From the NCBI GenBank assembly GCA_902524235.1, contig CABZCF010000009.1:1-44853 (forward strand): DNA of 44,853 bases, written 5' to 3'. Positions 32,598-37,621 of this stretch are shown here, piece by piece. The stretch is from an uncultured Pelagibacteraceae bacterium. GTDB lineage: Bacteria > Pseudomonadota > Alphaproteobacteria > Pelagibacterales > Pelagibacteraceae. Made by a program: the position numbers and the translations under genes. Under the pieces are notes generated by a model. The model saw only the letters and a program-made list of their open reading frames with translations. It ran no database searches and was not told the DNA's origin. Numbering within the stretch: the stretch's first letter is position 1; every line of letters begins with the position of its first letter.

Positions 32598-33158
32598 ATG
32601 AAATATTTATTAATAACTATTTTTACTTTTTTTATAAATATTAGTTTATCAGCAGAGATATCCCATGAAAATTTCGACAAATTATTTAATGTAGGAACGA
32701 TGAAATCTCATGATAATGAATTTACGTTATATTTTAAGTCGAGAAAAAAACCTGTTTTAGCTAGAGGTGAAAGAGAAAATTACATAAAAGATTACCCACA
32801 AGATCTTTATATTTACTTTCATAATACAAAAAGTGATTTACCACTCATTTCTTATGAATGGTTTCCCAAAGAAGCAAAAAAAATAAGTAATTATAATACT
32901 TATCCTGTATTCCCTGAAGATTTTGCATATTACTTATTACAAGACAATAATACACTTGTATTGATAAATGCAAAAAAGCAATTCAAGAAAAACTTTGAGT
33001 TTAATATTAGGGAAAGAAAATTAACACTTCGTGAAGATAAAAATAAAATAGATTTTATAATTTCAACTTTTGTAAAAAACTGTGGGTTTAAGAATATTAA
33101 AGAAAATTATAATTGTTATTTTTATAAACCATTAGTCTCAAGCTATCTTTTTAACTAG
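32598..33158 (+). CDS. Secreted protein of unknown function
   Basis: I recognise no family. It has 186 aa with a signal peptide of about 18 residues (ending LSA). The mature part is rich in aromatic and charged residues (DYPQDLYIYFHN, ISYEWFPKEAKK) with two closely spaced Cys near the C-terminus (VKNCGFKNI and YNCYF) that could bond. No repeats or membrane segments are seen. Its 3' end overlaps the convergent ftsY by 8 bp. Confidence 0.65.
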   Translation: MKYLLITIFTFFINISLSAEISHENFDKLFNVGTMKSHDNEFTLYFKSRKKPVLARGERENYIKDYPQDLYIYFHNTKSDLPLISYEWFPKEAKKISNYNTYPVFPEDFAYYLLQDNNTLVLINAKKQFKKNFEFNIRERKLTLREDKNKIDFIISTFVKNCGFKNIKENYNCYFYKPLVSSYLFN

Positions 33159-34068
33159 CTTCCAAAAAAGCATCAGCAAATTTACCTGAGTCAAAAATTT
33201 GCAAATCATCTATTTTTTCTCCTAGTCCAAGCGCGATTATTGGTAACCTAAATTTTTGAGCTATTGCTATTAAAATTCCACCTTTTGCAGTTCCATCTAG
33301 TTTTGTCATTATTATTCCTGTTATTGGGATTATTTTATTAAACTCATCGACTTGATTAATTATATTCTGACCTGAGGTTGCGTCTAACACTAATATTACT
33401 TCATGAGGAGAGTCTGAAATAATTTTTTTTGTTACATTTGCTATTTTTTTGTATTCTTCCATTAAGTTTTTTTTATTTTGAAGTCGTCCAGCTGTATCTA
33501 ATAGTGTTTTATTAACATTTTTTGATTTAGCTTGCTCAGCAGCTTTGTATGCAACTGCGGCAGGATCGGAACCAGTAGAGGATTTAATAATTTCTACACC
33601 AATTCTTTTTGACCATTCCTCAAGCTGCTCTATAGCAGCAGCCCTGAATGTATCACATGCAGCAAAAGCCACTTTATTATCATTATCCTTTAAAATTTTA
33701 CCAATTTTTCCAATAGTTGTTGTTTTTCCTGCACCATTCACACCTGAGATTAAAATTATATCATTTAAATTTGATCTATCAAAAAAATTCTTCTTCTCTA
33801 AAGGAAGCATCAAATTTATTATAAACTCTTTTAATATTTTATTTATCTCATTAATTGGATCTAAATTGGGATCAATTTTTCTATCTGATATAATCGTTTT
33901 AATCTTAGCAGATGCTTCAACTCCAACATCTGAACTAATTAAAAATTCTTCTATTTCATCGAGTTTTTTATCGTCGATTTCCTTTTTAACAACAATTTCT
34001 CTAAACCCTTCGGAGATTTTACTAGCACTTTTTTTAAAACCTAATTTAAACTTTTCAAATATTCCCAT
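33151..34068 (-). CDS. ftsY: Signal recognition particle receptor FtsY
   Basis: SRP receptor GTPase of 305 aa, essentially the NG domain with a very short N-terminal region. Motifs are P-loop ISGVNGAGKTTTIGKIG, DTFRAAAIEQL, DTAGRLQNKKNLMEE and TKLDGTAKGGI, plus ALGLGEKIDDLQIFD at the end. The acidic A domain of enterobacterial FtsY is missing, as is usual in streamlined species. It directly precedes dapF in reverse order and overlaps the unknown secreted gene by 8 bp. Its SRP partner ffh is transcribed divergently about 1 kb away. Confidence 0.96.
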   Translation of the reverse strand: MGIFEKFKLGFKKSASKISEGFREIVVKKEIDDKKLDEIEEFLISSDVGVEASAKIKTIISDRKIDPNLDPINEINKILKEFIINLMLPLEKKNFFDRSNLNDIILISGVNGAGKTTTIGKIGKILKDNDNKVAFAACDTFRAAAIEQLEEWSKRIGVEIIKSSTGSDPAAVAYKAAEQAKSKNVNKTLLDTAGRLQNKKNLMEEYKKIANVTKKIISDSPHEVILVLDATSGQNIINQVDEFNKIIPITGIIMTKLDGTAKGGILIAIAQKFRLPIIALGLGEKIDDLQIFDSGKFADAFLEAS

Positions 34069-34892
34069 TATAAATTTATTTCAATTGATTTAATATTAGA
34101 TACTGCACCTTTCATTTTTATAGAATTATTTTTATTTATAGAAATAGATAAATTCCCCAATTTAAATTCTATATCTACCTCATTTCCAGTTAGACCGTTT
34201 ATTTTACTAGCAAAAGCAGTAGCACATGCAGCCGATCCGCAAGCCTTAGTTAATCCTGCTCCCCTTTCCCAGACCTTAACAAATATTTTTTTGCTATTCT
34301 TAATTTCAGCAAGTGTAATGTTACATCTATCTGGAAATAATTTATTTATTTCTAAATTTGGTCCAATATCCTCTAAATCAAAATTTTCCAATTTATCAAC
34401 AAAGAAAATAGCATGAGGATTACCCACATTTACTGCCGTACCACCAAAATATTCATTTTTATTTTTATCCACGATTTTTAAATTTAAATTTTTTGTATCC
34501 ATTTTCTGGCTAATAGGTATTTCTTTCCATTCAGTTTTTGCTATTCCAATAACTGTTTCAACTAAATTTTTGTCCAAAATTTTAGAATTTAAAACTCCTG
34601 CTTTTGTTTTTAAGATTATTTCTTTTTTATTGCTTTCTTCAGATATTAAATAAGCAACACACCTTGTGCCATTTCCACAAGCTCCAGACTCGCTTCCATC
34701 TGAATTATAAAATACTAAATAAGCATCGAACTCCTCTGCGTGGTTCATGATAATAAGTTGATCACAACCTATAAATGACCGATTACAAATTTTAATTATT
34801 TGGTCACTAGAAAGCTTAATTTCATCAGTTCTGTTATCGATAATCACAAAATCATTACCTAATCCATCCATTTTAAAAGCTTTAAAATTCAT
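34068..34892 (-). CDS. dapF: Diaminopimelate epimerase
   Basis: Cofactor-independent epimerase of the lysine/peptidoglycan pathway, converting LL- to meso-diaminopimelate. Two catalytic Cys are visible: GACGNGTRCV (first half) and KACGSAACATAFAS (second half), in the expected pseudo-symmetric layout. MDGLGNDFVIID is the N-terminal signature. At 274 aa it is intact. It shares one base with ftsY on the minus strand. The start faces the structured region before ffh. Confidence 0.96.
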   Translation of the reverse strand: MNFKAFKMDGLGNDFVIIDNRTDEIKLSSDQIIKICNRSFIGCDQLIIMNHAEEFDAYLVFYNSDGSESGACGNGTRCVAYLISEESNKKEIILKTKAGVLNSKILDKNLVETVIGIAKTEWKEIPISQKMDTKNLNLKIVDKNKNEYFGGTAVNVGNPHAIFFVDKLENFDLEDIGPNLEINKLFPDRCNITLAEIKNSKKIFVKVWERGAGLTKACGSAACATAFASKINGLTGNEVDIEFKLGNLSISINKNNSIKMKGAVSNIKSIEINL

Positions 34893-34914
34893 ATATTTAT
34901 ACTTAACTTATTTA

Positions 34915-34940
34915 TTGACTTTTTGAACCTCTATTATACT
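34915..34940 (+). promoter_or_regulatory. Candidate ffh promoter
   Basis: TTGACT (34915-34920) and TATACT (34935-34940) are good matches to -35 and -10 but lie only 14 bp apart, shorter than ideal; TTATTG at 34912 gives a 17-bp alternative. Either would start RNA near 34946, exactly at the first paired base of the leader structure. Confidence 0.45.
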
Positions 34941-34945
34941 TTACC

Positions 34946-35028
34946 GATGTTTCCGCAAAAAACTGCTATTTGCGGTGTCTTTGTTTACAAAGAGATCGAC
35001 ATCAGTCAGCGATATTCGCCCACTGATG
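34946..35028 (+). ncRNA. Structured RNA leader of the ffh operon (two alternative folds)
   Basis: Four helices can be drawn by eye. P1 34946-34951 / 34998-35003 (GATGTT with GACATC, one G-U) encloses P2 34953-34959 / 34969-34975 (CCGCAAA with TTTGCGG) and P3 34978-34983 / 34988-34993 (TCTTTG with CAAAGA), making a three-way junction. P4 35000-35006 / 35022-35028 (CATCAGT with ACTGATG) holds an inner GCGA/TCGC hairpin. P1 and P4 share bases 35000-35003 and so exclude each other, which is switch-like. It does not have the GGAA tetraloop or internal loops of SRP RNA. It may belong to a catalogued ffh-linked RNA family; I could not check. Confidence 0.7.
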
Positions 35029-35049
35029 CGTTAACTGCTGGAATGAAAT

Positions 35050-36408
35050 ATGTTTGAAAATTTGACAAATAAATTTGATGAAGTTTTTTCATCTTTAAAA
35101 AAAGCTCCATCTCTTGATGAAAATCAAGTGGATGAGGGATTTAAAGGCATACGGCTAGCATTGCTAGAAGCGGATGTATCTTTAGAGGTTGTCAAAGATT
35201 TTATTGAAAAAGTAAAACCTAAAGCAATAGGTCAAGAAATTATAAGATCCACTTCTCCAGGGGATATGGTTGTGAAGGTTGTCTATGACGAGCTTGTAAA
35301 CTTATTAGGAACAAAAAATATAGAAATTAATCTAAACTCAGTCCCACCTGTTCCAATAATGATGGTTGGATTACAGGGTTCAGGAAAAACAACTACTACT
35401 GCGAAAATAGCTAAATATATTGAAAAGAATAATAAAAAAAAAGTTATGATGGTAAGTTTGGACGTTTATCGTCCTGCTGCACAAGAGCAATTAAAACTAT
35501 TGGGTGATCAAAATAATATTATAACTTTACCAATTATAGAGGGCCAATTACCCGCCGATATTTGTAGACGAGCATTAAGTGCAGCTAGCTTAAACGGATC
35601 TGAGGTCTTATTGTTTGATACTGCTGGCAGAACTCAAATTGATCTTCAAATGATGAGTGAGATTAAAGAAATAGAAAATATCATTAAACCAAATGAGGTA
35701 ATGCTTGTTGCAGACTCACTCACGGGTCAAGTTGCTGCAAACGTTGCAAAAGAATTTAAAAATACAGTAGATGTTTCAGGGATAGTTCTTACAAGATCAG
35801 ATGGTGACGGTCGTGGAGGTGCTGCTTTAAGCATGAAACACGTAGCAAATGTACCAGTAAAATTCTTGGGTGTAGGAGAAAAAATCGATAATCTAGAGGT
35901 TTTTCATCCTGATAGAGTTGCAAATAGAATATTAGGTATGGGGGATATTGTATCTCTTGTAGAAAAAGCTTCTGAAGATCTAGATGAGGAAAAATTAAAA
36001 AAAGCTGAAGAAAAATTAAAGAAAGGACAATTTTCTCTTGATGACTACCTAGGTCAACTAAGACAAATGAAAAAAATGGGTGGTATTGAAGGCGTAATGT
36101 CTTTTTTACCAGGGGTCTCTAAAATTAAATCTCAAATGGATCAAGCTGGCGTAGATGAAAAAATTATTACCCAAAATGAAGCTGTTATTTTATCGATGAC
36201 CAAAAGAGAGAGAGAAAATCCTAAAATAATTGATGGCTCAAGAAAAAAAAGAATTGCTAATGGTTCTGGAACCGACATTGCCACTATCAATAAATTATTA
36301 AAACAATTTAAAATGATGTCTGAAATGATGAAAAAGATGTCAAAAGGAAATATGAAAGGAATGGCGGACAAGGGATTGCCACCAGAACTTTTTAATCAAC
36401 TTAAATAA
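35050..36408 (+). CDS. ffh: Signal recognition particle protein Ffh
   Basis: SRP54-type GTPase of 452 aa that binds signal peptides and SRP RNA. The N domain is followed by the G domain with [31 protein letters not shown] and the alphaproteobacterial form [14 protein letters not shown], then the [13 protein letters not shown] linker. The Met-rich M domain contains the RNA-binding [13 protein letters not shown] and many Met near the end. A weak GGA site precedes the start; the leader upstream is structured. First gene of ffh-rpsP-trmD-rplS. Confidence 0.97.
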
Positions 36409-36419
36409 AAAGGAGAAAA

Positions 36420-36929
36420 ATGTTAAAACTTAGATTATCAATGGGAGGTACAAAAAAACGTCCCGTATACAAAATAGTTGTTGCGGATAGTAGATTTTCT
36501 AGAGACGGAAGATTTATTGAGAAACTTGGATTCTTTAATCCTCTAATACCAAAGGATAAAAAGGAACGTGTTGGTCTAGAGGCAGAGAGAATCAAATACT
36601 GGCTAGGACAAGGTGCTCAACCAACAACAAGAGTAGCTAGGATCTTAGGTGAAAATCAAATAATGCCTATGCCGCAAAAAGGAAACAATCCTCAAAAAGC
36701 TGTACCAAAGAAAGATAGAAAAAAAGAGGATAAATCGGAGACATCAAAAGACGGGGGCAAAACATCAGAAGCTCCTAAAGAAGAAAAGAAAGCGGAAGCT
36801 CCTAAGGAAGAGAAAAAGGAAGAGGCTCCTAAAGAAGAAAAGAAAGCGGAAGCTCCTAAGGAAGAGAAAAAGGAAGAGGCTCCTAAAGAAGAAAAGAAAG
36901 TGGAAGCTCCTAAGGAAGAGAAAAAATAA
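36420..36929 (+). CDS. rpsP: Ribosomal protein bS16 with long repetitive C-terminal tail
   Basis: Residues 1 to about 85 are normal bS16 ([52 protein letters not shown]). The remainder, up to residue 169, is a Lys/Glu-rich low-complexity tail; the last 52 residues are a tandem APKEEKKAE / APKEEKKEE repeat. The tail roughly doubles the usual 80-90 aa length. A clear AGGAG precedes the ATG. trmD follows after 2 bp, with no rimM between them. Confidence 0.95.
36771..36929 (+). repeat. 54-nt in-frame tandem repeat in rpsP
   Basis: Six 27-nt units starting GCTCCTAA, alternating two types so that the true period is 54 nt. Copies 36771-36824 and 36825-36878 appear identical base for base; the third (from 36879) has one substitution (GCG to GTG) and ends in the stop codon. 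Identity at synonymous sites indicates recent duplication by slippage, so copy number may vary between strains. Confidence 0.92.
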
Positions 36930-36931
36930 AA

Positions 36932-37621
36932 ATGTTTACTACAAGAATATTTACTTTGTACCCAGACATGTTTCCAGGCCCTCTAAACGAAGGATTATTT
37001 CGTAAGGCCATGGAAAAGAATATTTGGAATTTAGAAAAAGTAGATATTAGAAAATATGCTACTGATAAACATACTACAGTTGATGATACACCATATGGTG
37101 GAGGCTCTGGAATGCTCATGAAGCCAGATGTAGTAGCTAGTGCAATAGATAAAAATGTTAAAAAGGGTGAAAAGGTAATTTTTTTAACACCTAGGGGAAA
37201 AATTTTTAATCAAAGTATTGCCAAAGAACTTTCTTTGGAGAAATCAATAAATATAATTTGTGGTCGCTTCGAAGGCATAGACCAAAGAGTTGTTGAAACT
37301 AGGAATATTCAAGAATATAGCTTAGGTGATTTCATTTTATCAGGTGGGGAGACAGCAGCATTTGTCTTTGTCGATGCAATACTAAGATTGTTACCTGGAA
37401 TTCTTGGTAATGAAAATTCAATAAAAGATGAAAGTTTTGAAAATGGTCTTTTAGAGTATCCTCAGTATACAAAACCTCAAATTTGGGAGGAAAAAGGAGT
37501 CCCAAATGTACTTTTATCAGGAGATCATGCTAAAATTAAACACTGGCGTTTATCTCAATCTGAGGCTATAACACGCGACCGAAGGCCAGATTTATGGCAA
37601 AAATATAATAAAAAAAACTAA
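36932..37621 (+). CDS. trmD: tRNA (guanine-N1-)-methyltransferase TrmD
   Basis: SPOUT methyltransferase making m1G37 in tRNA to prevent frameshifting, 229 aa. Signatures are [41 protein letters not shown] and [17 protein letters not shown], which form the knot and AdoMet site, and the C-terminal [18 protein letters not shown]. Full length. It begins 2 bp after rpsP; the rplS ATG lies 16 bp downstream. Confidence 0.97.

Follow-up and report, generated by a model that had tools for sequence, protein, structure and literature searches.

The RNA element most closely related to the one considered here is the ffh motif. In its accessible text, PMC2704228 (Meyer et al. 2009) describes this motif as a single bulged hairpin upstream of ffh with more than 600 metagenomic representatives, reporting it from all fully sequenced Rhodobacterales, Sphingomonadales, and Rhizobiales and as absent from the Rhodospirillales, the Caulobacterales, and the other Rickettsiales. 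The same portion of the paper names no ligand, considers regulation of ffh possible, and mentions that the transcript was seen in metatranscriptome small-RNA studies. The motif is held in Rfam as family RF01793 ("ffh"), where it is typed as an sRNA. No role assigned to RF01793 was found in the literature that we searched, in which the term "ffh motif" could be traced to the 2009 paper only. The S. meliloti candidate sm5 lies in the dapF-ffh gap; according to the accessible part of PMC2573895, it has a predicted length of ~120 nt, no Northern blot was done, and its table row carries condition letters, which we take for array signals. A prediction from M. huakuii that bears the RF01793 label appears in the accessible text of PMC5596092; the gap in which it lies, called Pb-19, is another context. 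Among leaders of ribosomal protein operons, one in the Flavobacteria is proposed, in the part of PMC7247131 that is accessible, to have S16 as its likely ligand.

We analysed a stretch of 44,853 nucleotides from an uncultured Pelagibacteraceae bacterium (the window) and found that positions 34985 to 35037 on the + strand match RF01793 over the full 52-position model, with 51.2 bits against a gathering score of 35. This was the sole Rfam family at its gathering score across the entire window. As expected for RF01793, the match precedes ffh (start at 35050), and the near-constant cytosines of the bulged hairpin are present as C35007 and C35021. The leader RNA family is therefore one already known from Rfam and described in 2009; what is new here is a revised structure, a revised range, and a likely target. 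The initial annotation, which had proposed a structured leader and a search for an ffh-associated family, had called the published RF01793 hairpin P4.

A permissive Rfam search of 34800 to 35100 (E up to 5) returned nothing convincing besides RF01793. Two further matches, to a snoRNA and an archaeal sRNA, fell far under their gathering scores, and no Rfam ribosomal protein leader matched the leader region at E up to 5. Neither at the gathering score nor at E up to 5 did the leader match a metabolite riboswitch class, so nothing in these searches points to the riboswitch that had been offered as one option. The leader also had no match to RF00169 (SRP RNA), and the 4.5S RNA gene sits elsewhere in the genome, at G000:C1:4488-4580. 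Although genes of the same pathway lie nearby, 4.5S RNA is thus a separate gene, and the earlier statement that the leader is not SRP RNA itself was right.

The leader lies in a gap of exactly the reported 157 bp (34893 to 35049) that separates dapF (34068 to 34892, − strand) from ffh (35050 to 36408, + strand; TIGR00959, 565.6 bits, cutoff 473.2). On the + strand, ffh is followed by rpsP, the gene for the proposed ligand S16 (36420 to 36929; TIGR00002, 96.3 bits, cutoff 45.3), trmD (36932 to 37621; TIGR00088, 277.1 bits, cutoff 195), and rplS, encoding L19 (37623 to 38171; TIGR01024, 148.5 bits, cutoff 90.7, scanned from 37641), whose start codon is uncertain. The spacings are 11 nt between ffh and rpsP, 2 nt between rpsP and trmD, and 1 nt between trmD and rplS if the listed TTG is the rplS start, and from this close spacing the leader, ffh, and rpsP probably share one transcript. 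The ftsY and dapF genes (33151 to 34892) are divergent beside ffh, making both SRP GTPase genes near neighbors in the window. Viral contigs scanned with the window Ffh yielded no relative.

A candidate promoter on the + strand (34915 to 34940) consists of TTGACT at 34915 to 34920 and TATACT at 34935 to 34940. By eye, this stretch is conserved within the genus, but its boxes stand 14 nt apart, and for that reason a standard sigma-70 scan with 16- to 18-nt spacing found no promoter at the site. Transcription presumably starts near 34946. Positions 34943 to 34948, where the leader probably begins, change very fast among SAR11 relatives (14 to 28 inferred changes per column). They are flanked by the conserved stretch that resembles a promoter and by a UUCC that hardly varies.

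For the comparison within SAR11, 129 leaders were reduced to 117 unique aligned rows; rows removed were L001, which is SRP RNA, L112, a second copy of the window, L017 and L104, whose match was off center, and L091, in which no start was found. The helices P2, P3, and P4 of the initial annotation are present and backed by these relatives, being fully formed in 97 of 116, 97 of 99, and all 117 gap-free rows, respectively. P2 is a hairpin on the + strand at 34953 to 34975 (34953-34959/34969-34975) with a variable loop and 97.3% of cells paired over the 117 rows; its pair 34955-34973 is G-C in 102 rows and A-U in 14. P3 (34973 to 34998, + strand) proved longer than first drawn. As built from the comparison, it consists of an outer part (34973-34976/34995-34998), formed in 117 of 117 leaders, a G-G mismatch at 34977/34994, and an inner part (34978-34983/34988-34993) with 98.1% of cells paired. 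The outermost pair, 34973-34998, is C-G in 102 rows, U-A in 13, and U-G in 2. P3 shares its first three bases with P2 and adjoins P4. The tree-based covariation test gives E values above 1 for the P2 and P3 pairs other than 34978-34993, which reaches an E of 0.45 under a uniform null and 0.17 with rates kept. Support for these two helices therefore comes from pairing frequency, the class-wide set, and the 58-sequence test described below.

P4, the known ffh motif, occupies 35000 to 35028 on the + strand (35000-35006/35022-35028 and 35009-35012/35016-35019), with a C-C mismatch at 35007/35021 and an A-C mismatch at 35008/35020 in its interior. It also covaries: in the tree-based test, its pair 35003-35025 is the only one that is clearly significant among the SAR11 leaders, and covariation in P4 is likewise seen in alignment A1, composed of the window and 57 of 104 listed references (58 rows, chosen by hand with a preference for clean P3 calls). 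Across these 58 rows, 35008/35020 is A-C in 35, A-A in 10, U-A in 6, C-G in 5, G-U in 1, and A-U in 1. The P4 internal loop would therefore be better read as a single C-C mismatch with a covarying neighbor at 35008/35020. The first mismatch C is replaced by T in L082 and L087, the two of 117 SAR11 rows that were missed by our P4 finder, which demands both cytosines and also missed 2 of 84 class rows. After P4 comes a tail, CGUUAACUGCUGGAA (35029 to 35043, + strand), recognized in the alignments and ending 6 nt before the ffh start, or 7 nt by the end of the match to the R1 model introduced below.

We examined how well P3, P4, and the tail hold beyond SAR11. The class set comprised 84 of 101 non-SAR11 genomes with the motif; its rows L120, L125, L137, and L188 come from the same genomes as four of the rows from the marine PS1/OCS116-type order. 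P4 is adjoined by a hairpin of at least 5 pairs in 76 of 82 class rows (50.2 in shuffles), 14 of 14 PS1 rows (4.3), and 115 of 115 SAR11 rows (71.3); P3 as an abutting hairpin thus exceeds the shuffles, but the shuffle values are themselves high. A loose form of the tail word lies no more than 20 nt from P4 in 99 of 115 SAR11, 63 of 82 class, and 14 of 14 PS1 rows, counted without a shuffled control. In the 58 chosen sequences, P3 and P4 together have 92.8% of cells paired, against 78.1% in shuffled and 31 to 41% in slid alignments, and a covariation score of 0.307 against 0.124 in shuffled ones; none of 500 shuffles reached the observed paired fraction or covariation score. Two weaker measures, pairs changed on both sides (16 versus 12.9) and further pair types (38 versus 33.3), were reached by 7 and 17 of 500 shuffles. 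Because short P3 hairpins were left unaligned, no more than 23 to 32 of the 58 rows entered the P3 counts, which lean toward P3 through the preference given to clean P3 calls. By comparison of sequences, the conserved core of the element thus consists of P3 and P4, a pair of neighboring hairpins, and of a conserved tail after them, with one near-constant C-C mismatch in P4. In location and in the P4 hairpin this agrees with RF01793 as published (PMC2704228), but P3 is here a second helix, whereas the RF01793 structure line leaves it unpaired although part of its letters lie inside the model, and the published internal loop becomes the C-C mismatch and its covarying neighbor.

Two features that had suggested a switch did not extend beyond the window. 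The initial annotation described a helix P1 (34946-34951/34998-35003) whose formation would exclude P4. P1 can pair in the window but in only 1 of 117 SAR11 leaders, namely the window itself, which refutes an exclusive P1-P4 switch. Across the 117 leaders, 50% of P1 cells are paired, compared with 7 to 52% in slid controls. The columns of its first three bases rank with the quickest to change (24, 28, and 17 inferred changes), whereas those of the next three show 7, 6, and 0. The P1 fold is also about 6 kcal/mol worse than that with P2, P3, and P4 (−19.4 versus −25.3), and the window ensemble gives P1 pair probabilities of 0.0. The sequence AACTGCT does occur twice, at 34961 to 34967 and at 35033 to 35039, as had been noted, but both sites are found together in 1 of 117 leaders only, and at least one 7-mer recurs in 1,790 of 3,000 mononucleotide shuffles of the gap; we therefore rejected the repeat as chance. 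The whole window contains AACTGCT 13 times, with 6.09 expected. Seen as they are in a single leader, P1 and the repeat are accidents of one sequence. The initial observations are in this way confirmed in part and their interpretation is supported in part: a cis-acting structured leader of an operon for signal recognition and ribosomal proteins is a fair reading.

The sequence from 34946 to 35049 folds better than its dinucleotide shuffles (z of −3.21), and P4 and the inner part of P3 dominate the window ensemble. Pair probabilities are 0.76 to 0.83 for P3 and 0.12 to 0.30 for its outer extension. P2 is nearly absent (0.00 to 0.01), since its 5′ strand is taken up, in the minimum-energy fold, by pairing with sequence that precedes the ffh start. 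A pairing of the conserved UUCC upstream of P2 with GGAA near the ffh start, which also belongs to that fold, has all four pairs in 28 of 114 SAR11 leaders, so it was rejected as a general mechanism; 68% of its cells are paired, against 40 to 62% when slid. A pairing of the P2 loop with the tail, visible by eye in some leaders, was rejected as well, having no support in the tree-based covariation test.

The shared bases of P2 and P3 raise the question of whether the SAR11 leader is a bistable switch in which the base of P2 (34953-34955/34973-34975) competes with the base of P3 (34973-34976/34995-34998). Positions 34955, 34973, and 34998 shift jointly from G, C, G to A, U, A on two branches, with L071 and L083 as intermediates that hold both pairings by wobble. 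Stems of the P2 type reach into P3 in 100 of 115 SAR11 leaders, where 15.2 would be expected, and the two alternative folds are near in computed energy (−25.3 and −24.7). Against the tree-based null, however, neither pair is significant (E of 13 to 36 for 34973-34998 and 6 to 18 for 34955-34973), both helix bases are improbable in the window ensemble (up to 0.01 for P2 and up to 0.30 for the P3 extension), and a base triple would give the same pattern. The overlap is found in 0 of 14 PS1 rows and in 11 of 76 rows from the rest of the class, near the 8.1 expected by chance. We regard such a switch as doubtful, and the overlap at 34973 to 34975 could be a base triple or a switch peculiar to this lineage, if it is either.

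A model of P3, P4, and the tail (R1) changed the apparent range of the element. At E up to 0.001, R1 finds it in 231 of 385 class genomes and 160 of 276 genera, counts that carry rough E values from a model trained partly on sampled genomes. At the same threshold RF01793 finds 106 of the 385 genomes and 69 of the 276 genera, with 81 genomes over the gathering score; the genome set is the same as far as the listed handles show. The fuller model thus roughly doubles the class genomes in which the element is recognized, and with them the published range of RF01793 within the class. In a sample across the phylum, R1 matched 70 of 86 class genomes, a total deduced from listing order, and 1 of 213 genomes of other classes, that one at an E of 7.6e-4. 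Within the SAR11 order, 348 of 397 genomes have an RF01793 match; the 49 without one include 14 of 151 near-complete genomes.

Each of the 40 best-scoring of the listed matches found by R1 only (E up to 2.4e-8) ends 3 to 75 nt before ffh, and 39 of the 40 have rpsP further downstream in the fetched stretch. Among 80 class genomes, ffh lies 11 to 287 nt past the element in 73, with distances measured up to where the profile match begins; in 72 of these 73, rpsP follows downstream on the same contig and strand, within 600 nt in 66. Four of the 72, all from one family, have rpsP 1.9 to 3.7 kb past ffh, and there the element stays with ffh. Four of the remaining seven genomes belong to one PS1-type family. 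Of the rest, G624 has a partial ffh 26 nt past the motif and was left out of the 73, which comprise ffh matches over the cutoff plus G494 only; G417, with its motif 58 nt from a contig end, and G567, with its motif near a contig start and ffh on another contig, cannot be judged.

The PS1/OCS116-type marine order breaks the tie to ffh. The SRP54 GTPase domain was over its cutoff in none of 18 draft genomes of this order, 6 of which have a completeness of 90% or more and a contamination of 5% or less, whereas 14 of 14 controls matched. 4.5S RNA was found in 0 of the 18 genomes and in 11 of 14 controls. The only trace of PF00448 in the order is a stretch of 41 residues at G779:C4:22967-23089, with 20.5 bits against 22.7. 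The order thus appears to lack the SRP system. To our knowledge, such an absence is unusual among free-living bacteria. No paper joining the PS1 clade and signal recognition was found in the literature searched.

RF01793 is nonetheless present in 14 of the 18 PS1-type genomes, and in all 14 the gene that follows it is rpsP, starting 59 to 66 nt past the start of the matched P4 core. The four PS1-family genomes in the 80-genome set likewise have no match to the Ffh profile, which in other genomes also picks up FtsY, and have rpsP 34 to 39 nt past the element. One PS1 record, L234, reads dapF (− strand), element, rpsP, rimM, and trmD, followed by rplS and leuC-leuD-leuB by open reading frame reading; its order is like that of the window, with ffh missing and rimM added. 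The PS1 elements carry compensating changes, C-G to U-A and A-U to G-C in P4 and G-C to A-U in P3. The element is therefore maintained where Ffh is undetectable, and it stays with rpsP. The apparent loss of the presumed target, with the RNA kept, serves as a deletion experiment done by nature; it directs attention to the ribosomal operon and to a testable ligand.

We infer that the RF01793 element is probably a protein-binding leader of the rpsP operon and that autoregulation by S16 is the likeliest form of this control. The element stands as a conserved structured leader at the 5′ end of an operon that carries ribosomal protein genes, rpsP being present in 72 of 73 ffh-linked cases and in 14 of 14 PS1 cases, and S16 is the first candidate because the leader abuts rpsP in PS1. 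In the proposed mechanism, an operon product in excess over rRNA, most likely S16, would bind P3, P4, and the tail and block translation of the first gene. Such a block of the ribosome is plausible because the element ends 3 to 75 nt before the ffh start in the 40 genomes with the best-scoring listed R1-only matches, and 7 nt before it in the window. The downstream genes would follow through close spacing and translational coupling. With ffh first in the operon, SRP protein would be made in step with ribosomal proteins, and with ffh lost, rpsP itself would be the gene on which the leader acts. It is possible that the element also affects ffh outside PS1, since the first gene there is nearly always ffh. 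If the proposal is true, SAR11, a group abundant in the sea, couples its supply of SRP to that of ribosomes. The Flavobacteria leader of PMC7247131, as described in the accessible text, likewise lies directly before rpsP with S16 as the proposed ligand, but it belongs to another phylum, and the window convincingly matches only RF01793.

The gene order also bears on other ligands. Ffh itself might bind the leader and autoregulate its own mRNA: ffh adjoins the element almost everywhere (the 73 of 80 class genomes and the 40 best-scoring listed R1-only matches), and regulation of ffh is the role considered possible in the accessible text of PMC2704228. PS1-type genomes keep the element, with compensating changes, in the absence of an Ffh/FtsY domain over the cutoff or of 4.5S RNA, so Ffh is unlikely as the required ligand unless the ligand changed there, and we consider Ffh autoregulation improbable. 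For L19 or TrmD, other products of the rpsP operon, the gene order speaks no less than for S16. Both genes are downstream in the window, and L234 has trmD by profile and rplS by reading of its open reading frames; in its accessible part, PMC7247131 mentions a Firmicutes L19 leader as known and calls the first gene a poor guide to the ligand of a ribosomal protein leader. On the other side, the leader directly precedes the S16 gene in PS1, and no Rfam ribosomal protein leader matched 34800 to 35100 at E up to 5; on balance a ligand of this kind seems rather unlikely.

The element might instead be processed into a separate, trans-acting small RNA, as its Rfam type, the predicted sm5 in the S. 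meliloti dapF-ffh gap (PMC2573895, accessible part), and the metatranscriptome small-RNA transcript mentioned in PMC2704228 (likewise) could suggest. The close position before the operon in all 40 of the best-scoring listed matches, and before rpsP where ffh is gone, favors cis action, and we hold a trans-acting RNA to be highly improbable. Returning to S16, a fuller version of the preferred reading can be put forward only tentatively, and we doubt it as a whole: RF01793 would be an ancient alphaproteobacterial S16 leader through which unassembled S16 shuts the whole ffh-rpsP operon, so linking the amount of SRP protein to ribosome assembly, PS1 would have lost the SRP system but kept the ribosomal half of that circuit, and SAR11 would read the signal through the exchange of P2 and P3 bases at 34973 to 34975.

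In the window, S16 (36690 to 36929) and L19 (38016 to 38171) both have long, lysine- and glutamate-rich C-terminal tails, which are repeat-like in S16. The S16 protein of the PS1 record L234 likewise has an acidic repeat tail.
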